From Luteimonas sp. S4-F44 (GTDB lineage: Bacteria; Pseudomonadota; Gammaproteobacteria; Xanthomonadales; Xanthomonadaceae): a stretch of 64,000 bases of DNA. The translations under genes were made by a program, and so were the position numbers. Of the stretch, positions 476 to 3,916 are shown one piece after another. Where the stretch lies: assembly GCF_022637415.1 (NCBI RefSeq), contig NZ_CP093340.1:1674001-1738000 (forward strand). The letters run 5' to 3'. The stretch's first letter is position 1. Every line of letters starts with the position of its first letter. Under the pieces are notes generated by a model that was not told the DNA's origin, ran no database searches, and worked only from the letters and a program-made list of their open reading frames with translations.

Positions 476-1603
476 ATGAGCAAACGCGATTATTACGACG
501 TCCTTGGCGTCTCCCGCACCGCAAGCGAAGACGAGCTGAAGAAGGCGTATCGCCGTTGCGCGATGAAGCATCATCCGGACCGCAATCCGGGGGATGCCGC
601 CGCCGAGGCCGCGTTCAAGGAGTGCAAGGAGGCCTACGAGGTGTTGTCGGACGGCGGCAAGCGCAGGATGTACGACCAGCACGGGCATGCGGCGTTCGAG
701 CACGGCATGGGCGGCGGCAATGCCGGACCGGGCTTCGGGCCGGACATGGGCGATATCTTCGGCGACATCTTCGGCAACATCTTCGGCGGCGGCGGACGCA
801 GCGGCCCGCGTCGCGGTGCCGACGTGGGCTATGTGATGGAGCTCGACCTCGAGGACGCGGTCGCCGGTGTCGAGAAGCGCATCGAACTGCCGACGCTGAC
901 CGGCTGCGACGACTGCAATGGCAGCGGTTCGGAGGACGGCAAGCGCGAGACCTGCTCGACCTGCGCCGGTCGCGGCCAGGTGCGGATGCAGCGCGGGCCC
1001 TTCACGATGCAGCAGGCCTGTCCGCATTGCGGCGGGCACGGCCAGGTGATCGCCAATCCCTGCAAGACGTGTCATGGCGCAGGGCGGGTCGAGGACGAGA
1101 AGGTGCTGTCGGTGAAGATTCCCGCCGGCGTCGATTCGGGCGATCGCATCCGCCTGTCGGGCGAAGGCGAGGCCGGTCCGGCTGGTGCGCCGCCCGGCGA
1201 TCTCTATGTGGAAGTGCGGGTGCGCCCGCACGACATCTTCGTGCGCGACGGCGACGACCTGCATTGCGAGGTGCCGATCCGCATCTCGCAGGCCGCGCTC
1301 GGCGACACGGTGCGCGTGCCCACGCTCGGCGGCGAGGCCGAGATCCGCATTCCGGCCGAGACCCAGACCGGCAAGGTGTTCCGCCTGCGCGACAAGGGCG
1401 TCAAGTCGGTGCGCAGCCGCTCGGTCGGCGACCTGTACTGCAAGATCTTCGTCGAGACGCCGGTCAATCTCACCGCCGATCAGCGCGATCTGCTGCAGCG
1501 CTTCGAGGCGACGTTCACCACCGAGAACGCGCGCCGGCATTCGCCCAAGTCCAGCACCTTCATGGACGGTGTCAAGGGCTTCTGGGAACGCATGACGTCC
1601 TGA
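476..1603 (+). CDS. dnaJ: Chaperone protein DnaJ (Hsp40)
   Basis: This is a 375-residue type I J-protein, the usual length. The J-domain occupies roughly residues 1-70 with the HPD motif at 33-35, which stimulates DnaK ATPase. A Gly/Phe-rich stretch follows at about 80-110. Four CxxCxGxG zinc motifs ([32 protein letters not shown]) lie at about 144-205. The C-terminal substrate-binding domains run to the end. It acts in the cytosol, delivering unfolded clients to DnaK, whose gene end lies just upstream. The ATG start gives the canonical [12 protein letters not shown] beginning. Confidence 0.98.
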
Positions 1604-1616
1604 TCCGTCCCAATGT

Positions 1617-1665
1617 GCGGGCGCTTCTGCGAAGCGCCTGAAGCGATGAGGGCGATGACGCCCTC
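1617..1665 (+). terminator. Two consecutive hairpins after dnaJ
   Basis: GGCGCTTC-TGC-GAAGCGCC and then GAGGGCG-ATGA-CGCCCTC follow the dnaJ stop. Neither has a good T-run, so termination is only plausible. They also separate dnaJ from the oppositely oriented broken gene. Confidence 0.4.
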
Positions 1666-1697
1666 CGCGAGCAGCCTGATTGCTCGGGCGTCACGCT

Positions 1698-2260
1698 TCA
1701 GACGGCTGTCCCGCGCAAAGCGGCCTTCAGGTGTGCGTGGCCGTCGCCCGCCAACCATGCGCGCAGCGAGACGAGCTCGGGATTGAGCGCGCGGATCCGT
1801 TCAAGGTGTACGCGCTCTGCGAGCCGGCCGGATTCCAGGCTGGCGGCATATGTGCCAGGTCGGGATGGGCGGCCAGGACCGCATCCGGAAGTCGGGCATA
1901 GGGGATGGGCCTGCCGGCGGCGTGCGAAAACGCGGCCTCCAGCGCGTCCCCGGTCACGCGATCGCCGGCGATCTTCAGCGTCATGCCTGCGAACCGCGCC
2001 CGGTCCGCGAACAGGGTGGCGACGATCTTGCCGATGTCCTCCACCGCGATGAGCTGGATCGAGTGCGCGCGGTGGATCAGCGACACCAGCGCAATTGCCG
2101 CGGGTCGAGGCGTTGCGTCGAAGTCACGACGGCAACCGCCGTTGATGGCGTATCGTCTGGCGAAGACCGGACGTAATCTTTGCCGGCAACAGGCCACCGG
2201 GTCGCCGCATCGATGCGGCTGTCTCGAGTGCGGACCGCTTGACGGATGGGAGCGCCCCAA
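1698..2260 (-). pseudogene. Remnant of an NmrA/SDR-type NAD(P)-binding protein (truncated and frameshifted)
   Basis: Read leftwards, the frame contains LIHRAHSIQLIAVEDIGKIV, then a TLKIAGDRVTGDALEAAFSHA stretch and GRPIPYARLP. This is the typical second half of NmrA-like atypical short-chain dehydrogenases, where the sequence before DDIG/EDIG is followed by IAGD and a GRPIPY motif. After about position 1840 the family similarity continues in another frame (LERIRALNPELVSLRAWLAG, ending at TGA 1698-1700), so there is at least one frameshift. The N-terminal half, with the GxxGxxG cofactor motif, is absent, and residues upstream of about 2110 do not resemble the family. I infer a dead gene. Confidence 0.65.
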
Positions 2261-2272
2261 CTAGCGCAATCG

Positions 2273-2411
2273 GTATCCACAGTCGATGTGGATGTCATGA
2301 CGACAAACGTGTGGATAAGCCGCGCCGACCCGCTTGCGATCGGGTGTGCTTTTGGCTGGTCATTTATTCGCCACCTGCCGATCCGCGACCCAACGCGGGG
2401 CTTGCGTCGCG
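2273..2411 (+). repeat. DnaA-box repeat, unit 1
   Basis: This unit carries gTATCCACA (2273-2281), TGTGGATGT (2287-2295) and the perfect DnaA box TGTGGATAA (2310-2318, reverse of TTATCCACA). An AT-rich stretch ending in TTCGCCA follows (2367-2373), then a CTTG-N3-CGCGCA element (2401-). Starts of the three boxes are 14 and 23 bases apart, exactly as in units 2 and 3. No convincing gene is present in 2261-3181. Confidence 0.75.
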
Positions 2412-2598
2412 CATTCGGATCTGCATGCGCACGCCGCATGCATGGACTGCGCGCCAAACGACGTGCGTGCAGCGGCGCGATGCGATGACCCGACCCACGG
2501 GGCGATGGCATTGCAGGCACGGTGATGCGGTCGAATCGCATGCGGGGAAAGCGCCTCACGACCGCTTGACGACGTCGCGTTTGCGGCCTCCACGCCGG

Positions 2599-2737
2599 TC
2601 ATCCACAAGCGATGTGGATGGTCTGGTCACAAAGGTGTGGATAAGCATCGCGCGGCCGCTTCGCAGGCGGGTGGATTTCGACTGGTGAAGTTTTCGCCAT
2701 CCGCGTCGGCTGACGAAGAATCCGGGCTTGACCCGCG
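2599..2737 (+). repeat. DnaA-box repeat, unit 2
   Basis: TCATCCACA (2599-2607) is one mismatch from consensus. It is followed by TGTGGATGG (2613-2621), GGTCACAAAG, the perfect box TGTGGATAA (2636-2644), TTTTCGCCA (TTCGCCA at 2693-2699) and CTTGACCCGCGCAG (2727-2740). Box spacing is again 14 and 23, and the distance from the perfect box to TTCGCCA is 57, as in unit 1. Confidence 0.75.
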
Positions 2738-2833
2738 CAGGCCCGGATGCATCGCCTGCAGCCGCCTCCGGATGGGCGAGGACGGCGGCGCGCTCGCGAC
2801 TTGACGGCCGCGCCACGTCGCGTCCGGCGGCGG

Positions 2834-2972
2834 TCGTCCACAGCCGGTGTGGATGGCCTGGTCACAAAGATGTGGATAAGCGGCCGCGGCCCTTCATTGG
2901 CGCGGCGCGCTCGTAGTGGCGAAAAATTCGCCATGTATCACTCGGGTGCGGCGAGACTGTGCTTGACCCGCG
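2834..2972 (+). repeat. DnaA-box repeat, unit 3
   Basis: TCGTCCACA (2834-2842), TGTGGATGG (2848-2856), GGTCACAAAG, the perfect box TGTGGATAA (2871-2879), an A/T tract plus TTCGCCA (2927-2933) and CTTGACCCGCGCAG (2962-2975). The 14- and 23-base box spacing is identical to the other units, and the TTCGCCA distance is 56. The bases between elements differ among units, so only the motifs and their spacing are conserved. Confidence 0.75.
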
Positions 2973-3181
2973 CAGCGGATTGCGCCGCGCCCGCGGCGGG
3001 CCGTGCGTCATGCGCCGACTTACGCTCGCTGGTGGAACGCTCAGTCCCGGAAACGTTGCGGCGCGATCCCCGCCCCAGGCGCCCGGCCGCGCTTCCGTCT
3101 CGAGGCTAGAATGCGCGGCATGAAGACCCGACCCGATTGTCTTGCCGTTTCGACCCCGCCGCCGCGATCGGCGGTGGCCCG

Positions 3182-3916
3182 ATGAGCCCGCCTGTCCGGG
3201 TGCTGGTGCACGGGGCATCCGGCCGGATGGGGCAGGCCGTCCTGCGTCTGGCAGCCTCGTGCGACGGTTTGGCGGTGGTGGCGGCAGTGTCGGGAAGCGC
3301 CCCGCGCCAACGGGTCATCGGCGGCGTGCCGTACTTCGGCGCCGCCGAACTCGGTGGCGCGCCGCCCTTCGATGTCGCCATCGACTTCAGCCTGCCGGCG
3401 GGCTTCGATGCGTTGCTGGCGCTGTGCGAGCGGCGTGGCGCGGCGCTGGTCTCGGGCACCACCGGGCTGTCGGAGGCGCAGAACGCCGCGCTCGACGCCG
3501 CAGCGGGGCGGATTCCGGTGCTGTGGGCCTCGAATTTCAGCCTCGGGGTTGCGGTCCTGCAGGATCTGGTCGCACGCGCGGCGGCGATGCTGCCGGGCTG
3601 GGACTGCGACATCGTCGAATCGCACCACACGCGCAAGCTCGATGCGCCGTCGGGGACCGCGTTGACGCTGGGCGCGGCCGCGCAAGGGCAGGGCGCCAGC
3701 CCGCGCTACGCCTCGATCCGGGCCGGCGACATCGTCGGCGAGCATCTGGTGCAGTTCACGACCCGCGGCGAGCGCATCGAGCTCGTTCACCGGGCCGGCG
3801 ATCGCGACATCTTCGCGGCCGGGGCGTTGCATGTCGCAGCGCGGCTGGCCGGGCGCGCGCCGCGCCGTTACGGGATCGCCGAGCTGCTCGGCGCCGGCGC
3901 GACGACCTCGGCATGA
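3182..3916 (+). CDS. dapB: 4-hydroxy-tetrahydrodipicolinate reductase
   Basis: This enzyme reduces 4-hydroxy-tetrahydrodipicolinate with NAD(P)H in the lysine/diaminopimelate pathway, in the cytosol. The N-terminal Rossmann motif GASGRMG is at residues 11-17. The catalytic/substrate signature ESHHTRKLDAPSGTA starts near residue 146. The protein has 244 residues, close to the usual 240-270. I chose ATG 3182 because it begins MSPPVRVLVHG directly before the nucleotide-binding strand; an in-frame GTG at 3137 would add 15 residues with no family character. It stands 132 bases upstream of carA on the same strand. Confidence 0.96.
   Translation: MSPPVRVLVHGASGRMGQAVLRLAASCDGLAVVAAVSGSAPRQRVIGGVPYFGAAELGGAPPFDVAIDFSLPAGFDALLALCERRGAALVSGTTGLSEAQNAALDAAAGRIPVLWASNFSLGVAVLQDLVARAAAMLPGWDCDIVESHHTRKLDAPSGTALTLGAAAQGQGASPRYASIRAGDIVGEHLVQFTTRGERIELVHRAGDRDIFAAGALHVAARLAGRAPRRYGIAELLGAGATTSA

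Follow-up and report, generated by a model that had tools for sequence, protein, structure and literature searches.

Tandem four-box DnaA units with a conserved palindrome on the terminus side of a Luteimonas chromosome: a candidate DARS-like element

Introduction

Between dnaJ and dapB on the chromosome of Luteimonas sp. S4-F44 lies an array of three tandem copies of a non-coding unit built around DnaA boxes, which raises the question of whether such a locus reactivates DnaA, holds it, or serves another role altogether. A sequence-only reading of the window (the whole 64,000-bp stretch analyzed here, G000:C1:1674001-1738000, from a one-contig genome of 3,685,273 bp) had placed three units exactly where we find them, likened them to the datA and DARS loci of Escherichia coli, and named a dispersed repeat family as another candidate. 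Here we describe the sequence, geometry, conservation, and chromosomal place of the array, and weigh what these suggest about its role.

According to a review, the head-to-head arrangement of boxes I and II is characteristic of DARS and essential to it, and DARS-like sequences are conserved in many proteobacteria (PMC10380432). Two further papers (PMC4245941, PMC8682772) report a DARS2 core with Fis and IHF sites for relatives of E. coli among the gammaproteobacteria. A search of the open-licence literature at the level of listings returned no apparent report of such an element in Xanthomonas or its relatives.

Results and Discussion

DnaA Boxes of the Units

The array is preceded by dnaJ (476-1603) and an NmrA-family remnant (1727-2260), and followed by dapB (3137-3916) and by two genes which, from their reading frames, we take to be carA (4048) and carB (5171). 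The remnant matches only profile positions 186-253 of 298 and has the appearance of a decayed gene. The window has no Rfam match at gathering thresholds, and four terminator-like matches occur in 1600-3200, where 0.9 would be expected.

The units are marked by 54-bp repeats that begin at 2267, 2593, and 2828, and each unit contains four DnaA boxes (Table 1): box I on the forward strand and boxes II, III, and IV on the reverse, with successive start distances of 14, 11, and 12 bp. The perfect reverse box of each unit and the start distances of 14 and 23 bp were correctly described in the sequence-only reading, as were the three boxes that it counted per unit; the degenerate box III, 11 bp from box II, was overlooked, and the GGTCACAAAG-like stretch noticed ahead of the perfect box is this box (TGGTCACAA) in unit 2. 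The perfect word, TTATCCACA, has three copies in the window (2310, 2636, and 2871, minus strand), compared with 0.03 expected and with none of 100 shuffled sequences reaching three; there are eight occurrences in the whole genome, and four of the same word read backwards. The combined pattern TCCACA-N5-TGTGGAT-N16-TGTGGATAA, at up to two mismatches, has three matches in the genome, all within the array.

Table 1. Coordinates of the boxes, palindromes, and CTTG elements of the array (window positions).
Feature	Positions	Strand	Sequence or remark
Unit 1 DnaA box I	2273..2281	+	GTATCCACA
Unit 1 DnaA box II	2287..2295	-	head to head with box I, 5-bp spacer
Unit 1 degenerate DnaA box III	2298..2306	-	TGACGACAA on + strand
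Unit 1 perfect DnaA box IV	2310..2318	-	
Unit 1 palindrome	2357..2373		TGGTCATTTATTCGCCA
Unit 1 CTTG element	2401..2413	+	diverged from genus-type CTTGAYCYGCGCA
Unit 2 DnaA box I	2599..2607	+	TCATCCACA
Unit 2 DnaA box II	2613..2621	-	
Unit 2 degenerate DnaA box III	2624..2632	-	TGGTCACAA on + strand
Unit 2 perfect DnaA box IV	2636..2644	-	
Unit 2 palindrome	2683..2699		TGGTGAAGTTTTCGCCA, 1 mismatch to strict pattern
Unit 2 CTTG element	2727..2740	+	CTTGACCCGCGCAG
Unit 3 DnaA box I	2834..2842	+	TCGTCCACA
Unit 3 DnaA box II	2848..2856	-	
Unit 3 degenerate DnaA box III	2859..2867	-	TGGTCACAA on + strand
Unit 3 perfect DnaA box IV	2871..2879	-	
Unit 3 palindrome	2917..2933		TGGCGAAAAATTCGCCA
Unit 3 CTTG element	2962..2975	+	CTTGACCCGCGCAG

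Box III matches 7/9 positions in each window unit, by manual count with G allowed at position 3. The wider family was represented by 184 distinct exact units, with 158 distinct cores, in which every offset was scored for a reverse DnaA box, again accepting G at position 3, as in the TTGTCCACA box of the genome's own dnaA-dnaN gap; apart from boxes II and IV, this gave a peak at +11 from box II. The mean score for box III over the 158 cores is 6.56 of 9, compared with 3.54 (sd 0.10, maximum 3.79) when the gap letters are shuffled, and 64% of the cores score at least 7, compared with 1% after shuffling. A weaker forward-strand peak in the same scan, at +10 from box II, overlaps box III.

Elsewhere in the genome, TGTGGACAC and TGTGGATAA lie 23 bp apart at G000:C1:2004692-2004723 (L008), a pair that resembles boxes II and IV but is accompanied by neither box I nor a palindrome, and is perhaps a remnant or a chance occurrence.

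The Palindrome and Its Surroundings

Past the boxes, each unit contains a 17-bp palindrome, TGGYSA-N5-TSRCCA (at 2357, 2683, and 2917, and nowhere else in the window when one mismatch is allowed), which begins 38, 38, and 37 bp after box IV and 61, 61, and 60 bp after box II. The AT-rich tract noted previously is its right half, although the palindrome around that tract had been missed; the distances which that reading gave, 56-57 bp from the start of the perfect box to TTCGCCA and a further 34-35 bp to CTTG, are correct.

Across the family, 176 of the 184 units score at least 10 of 12 for the TGGYSA/TSRCCA half-sites, a threshold that is weak by itself (559/867 random 220-bp stretches also reach it), while the perfect score of 12 is reached by 92/184 units as against 28/867 random stretches. 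The position is nearly fixed: the palindrome starts 35-39 bp after box IV in 174 of the 176 well-scoring units, with a 5-bp center in 170, and the distance from box II in array-type units is 62 bp in 115/170 and otherwise mostly 60-61 bp. The strict pattern, TGGYSAWWWWWTSRCCA, is rare, occurring at 13 places in seven genomes, 9 of them beside a unit (manual reading of the list); the two exact matches in the own genome are both in the array, and two of the seven genomes (G048 and G211) have units with no exact match. The four places without an exact unit comprise two variant units (G182), one site upstream of priA (G208), and one site with a single weak box (G182). In the two variant units found via the palindrome (L237 and L238; C1:2708200-2708950 and 3543650-3544400), the last box is TGTGGACAA and the spacing is unchanged; the exact pattern therefore undercounts units in Xanthomonas-type genomes.

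The CTTG element is found 27-28 bp past the palindrome in 38/168 units, and a TGTCAAG-like stretch precedes the palindrome in 69 others. Fis is a possible candidate for the protein at the palindrome, in that G and C at ±7 agree with its site, but a consensus search found the full site at the palindrome in only 51/168 units and in 0/3 of the window units, with neither half present in 43/168. The IHF consensus was found beside only 4/184 units and at none of the window units. The matS site of MatP does not fit the letters of the palindrome.

Conservation and Distribution

Conservation was compared over the orthologous arrays of four species (G000, G010, G024, and G053). Invariant columns make up 27/27, 24/27, 26/27, and 27/27 of boxes I, II, III, and IV, respectively, and 46/51 of the palindromes, compared with 348/810 elsewhere; box and palindrome columns are thus 89-100% invariant against 43% for the rest. 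In the spacer, 68 of 724 9-mers have eight or more invariant columns.

The spacing is also nearly constant when it is left free. In 298 genomes of the order, a search with exact bases and gaps of 0-20 and 4-34 returned 150 matches in 73 genomes (1-7 per genome), and by manual reading the gaps were exactly 5 and 16 in 147 of them, with exceptions in G069, G074, and G156; the reversed pattern gave no match. Matches with 5/16 gaps are restricted to the family of the window and one other (f12), with none in nine other families sampled. At up to one mismatch, 5/377 genomes match class-wide, all in these two families, and 0/371 sampled gammaproteobacterial genomes outside the order do so. Named genomes contain at least 120 stretches with matches; among the 120 listed, 114 belong to Xanthomonas, Stenotrophomonas, Pseudoxanthomonas, Luteimonas, Lysobacter, Luteibacter, Dyella, and kin, one is from a Proteobacteria MAG, and five are from outside the order. 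These five are exact matches in an Acinetobacter genome, three Desulfomonile-type MAGs, and one Eubacteriaceae MAG (L076, L101, L129, L143, and L165).

Within the genus, the unit is found in 21/52 genomes at up to two mismatches, and its absence from the other 31 implies that these bacteria can do without it or replace it. In 24 congeners (19 without any match, and five with weak or elsewhere-placed matches), the 1.5 kb upstream of dapB contain no unit at up to five mismatches (the best match in shuffled sequence has seven), and the element is thus absent or unrecognizable in much of the genus.

A mobile or dispersed repeat family would likewise show copies in tandem, several places in one genome, and patchiness within the genus. 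Such a repeat would be expected at many unrelated places with likeness over the whole unit; instead, matching genomes have 1-7 copies, likeness between copies is confined to the boxes and the palindrome, with conserved modules in diverged spacer, and many copies have gene neighborhoods common to several genera. Given the few copies and the common neighborhoods, we regard this explanation, also raised in the sequence-only reading, as highly improbable; the dozens of unrelated insertions that it implied were not seen.

Chromosomal Place

In the own genome, dnaA is at 3.659 Mb and a dif candidate (three mismatches to the word used) is at 1.806 Mb, placing the array near the terminus, at 0.93 of the way from dnaA to the dif candidate. 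Coincidence with the replication origin, which the earlier reading had proposed to check, does not hold: dnaA is 1.7 Mb away, and the dnaA-dnaN gap, the own oriC, has three 8-of-9 DnaA boxes (including the TTGTCCACA that box III resembles) and, unlike the array, neither TTATCCACA nor the unit geometry.

Arm positions in other genomes were marked by dnaA and a dif-like site, the latter present in 27 of 30 genomes searched. This site is a useful mark of the terminus, occurring once in 26 of the 30 chromosomes, twice in G213, and not at all in three (L243 and L057). From 31 genomes (these 30 and the own), the fragmented G053, G184, G274, and G302 were dropped, leaving 27; the point opposite dnaA was used instead of dif for G174, G178, and G235, and only contig 1 for four others with 2-8 contigs. 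In one congener (G010:C1:1494775-1496114; L236), dnaA was matched as two overlapping pieces, reflecting a frameshift or an assembly error.

The 27 genomes contain 58 places, which are non-independent, being common by descent: the origin-proximal 30% of the arm contains none of them, whereas 35 are beyond 0.7, and 48 point to the terminus. Because of this common descent, we do not claim the orientation as selected. A terminus-side chromosome-organizing site, with the palindrome protein as the main actor and DnaA incidental, could account for the 35/58 places beyond 0.7 and the 48/58 facing the terminus, and would agree with a palindrome that in some genomes is almost restricted to the units. 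This role appears very unlikely to us, in that the DnaA boxes are the best conserved part, the positional bias does not represent 58 independent events, and the places in the second family are at 0.32-0.71 of the arm.

The chromosomal place also bears on the main rival to a DARS-like role, namely titration, as in the original description of datA or in the DnaA-box clusters of Bacillus subtilis: the array would only hold DnaA, and its geometry would serve tight cooperative binding. The array comprises 12 boxes within 0.6 kb, the sole cluster among the eight perfect boxes of the genome, and a copy number that differs among species is compatible with a dose-dependent sink. It resembles datA in being a non-coding cluster of DnaA boxes away from dnaA, and its genome resembles that of B. 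subtilis in having several DnaA-box clusters on one chromosome. We know of no unit geometry or palindrome of this kind in the B. subtilis clusters. A sink needs no fixed 5/16 gaps, degenerate box III, or palindrome, and datA is without such geometry: it has one weak head-to-head pair with no box after it, and not the 14-bp pair with a following box. The two also differ in that the array is at 0.93 of its arm and has no IHF consensus. E. coli datA is near the origin and the B. subtilis clusters are origin-near titrators, and both stop functioning once moved to the terminus, according to one study (PMC5010248), which argues against titration at a terminus-side place. Taken together, titration is an unlikely, though serious, alternative.

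Gene Neighbors and the priA-Linked Element

Among 194 fetched loci with units (several of which may cover one place), dnaJ is within 3.5 kb upstream in 56; in these, dapB comes next in Luteimonas, and in Stenotrophomonas and Xanthomonas dnaJ is separated from the unit by a prephenate dehydrogenase gene. Other loci have prephenate dehydrogenase alone (24), a short-chain dehydrogenase or CDP-alcohol phosphatidyltransferase (41), or none of the neighbors tested (65). Among the 120 named stretches listed, the counts for such neighborhoods are 45 and 33.

The own genome has a single head-to-head pair of perfect boxes 14 bp apart, at 2889713-2889735 (L247), upstream of priA, in the gap between divergent genes at 0.415 of its arm. 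Read on the other strand, the order is I-14-II-12-III, which is exactly the DARS spacing. At 62 bp past box II comes a palindrome-like TGGACAAAAAAGTGCCA, whose score of 9/12 is below the cut used for units; AATCAATGGCTTG, which matches the IHF consensus, is at 98 bp and GTGAAACA at 114 bp after box II. The same three-box 14/12 core is present in all five genomes read (L247, L246, L294, L301, and L311), namely the own genome, a second Luteimonas-type, two Stenotrophomonas-type, and one Xanthomonas-type, with types assigned from core and neighbor likeness. In all five, a palindrome-like site is at 62 bp (with a loosened pattern), an IHF-like site, judged from its letters, at 97-98 bp after box II (four perfect, one with a mismatch), and GTGAAACA at 113-114 bp; in G048, priA is absent from the 120 kb fetched. 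Over 864 kb (the window and the stretches), TCCACA faces TGTGGA across a 5-bp gap six times, corresponding to the three units and three priA sites, and across any other gap of up to 40 bp three times, always 28 bp. By its sequence the priA element would count as a DARS, and it is perhaps the true DARS counterpart of this group.

The location of the units between dnaJ and dapB, and of the priA element between divergent genes, could also be accommodated by a DnaA-dependent transcription switch for the neighbors, here dapB or dnaJ. Against this, the genes flanking the units vary with no common function (prephenate dehydrogenase, ABC transporter, CDP-alcohol phosphatidyltransferase, MatE, catalase, glycosyltransferase, and MFS transporter), and a promoter search limited to the sigma-70-like type found no match in 1600-3200; we consider a switch improbable.

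Comparison With DARS and Proposed Mechanism

In E. coli MG1655, DARS1 reads TTATCCACT-N5-TGTGGATAA-N3-TGTGTATTA and DARS2 reads TTATTCACC-N5-TGTGGATAG-N3-TGTGAAGAA, with box starts 14 and 12 bp apart in each, and the two loci are at 0.66 and 0.41 of the arm, respectively (with dif as the mark). The array shares with both the head-to-head boxes I and II at 14 bp start to start (5-bp spacer) in all three units, a same-direction box after box II, an intergenic site, and a place away from the origin; E. coli oriC has no head-to-head 14-bp pair. Where DARS1 and DARS2 have three boxes with the third at +12, the array has no same-direction box at that distance, but rather a degenerate box III at +11 and a strong box IV at +23. 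It also has a palindrome 37-38 bp past box IV, which is missing at the array-type distance from DARS1 and DARS2, and its units are tandem, in contrast to one copy per DARS locus in E. coli. Consensus searches beside its core found neither the IHF site nor the full Fis site that accompany DARS2.

Of the two E. coli loci suggested in the sequence-only reading, DARS is thus favored by the pair geometry and the distance from the origin, and datA, where this geometry is absent, is not. We did not file the array as a DARS, because of the third box at +11, the fourth box, and the lack of an IHF or full Fis consensus. Our preferred interpretation, held with modest confidence at somewhat better than an even chance, is that a DARS-like element is repeated here three times in tandem, and that it reactivates DnaA together with a partner protein on the palindrome. 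The evidence leans this way through the I-II pair as in DARS1 and DARS2, the 5/16 gaps, box III, the invariant modules, the fixed palindrome, the priA element, and the lack of origin-proximal places; the degenerate box III at +11, box IV, the missing IHF and Fis consensus, the 31/52 congeners without the unit, and the tandem copies count against it.

From this geometry we infer DnaA binding, ADP release, a palindrome protein, and an effect on initiation. DnaA molecules bound to boxes I and II would come into head-to-head contact and release ADP, and more DnaA would be seated by box III and the strong box IV in the direction of box II. The palindrome, ∼60 bp from box II, may be bound by a dimeric protein with a role in shaping the complex like that of IHF and Fis at DARS2 of E. 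coli.

Implications for DnaA Control in Xanthomonadales

A broader and more tentative possibility, which we consider rather less probable than not, is that Xanthomonadales recharge DnaA via two tiers. The first would be the DARS next to priA, which has the E. coli spacing and an IHF site; the second would consist of the terminus-side four-box units with a dedicated palindrome-binding protein instead of Fis, such that the late-copied units would couple the near-completion of one replication round to recharging for the next.

The units may belong to this group's timing of DNA replication, and the palindrome may mark the target of a further replication-control protein. If the DARS-like interpretation is true, a large order with members from plants and hospitals would recharge DnaA by related, differently built, multi-copy elements, and through the natural variation in unit number, place, and spacing, the question of why DnaA control sites sit where they do would become testable.
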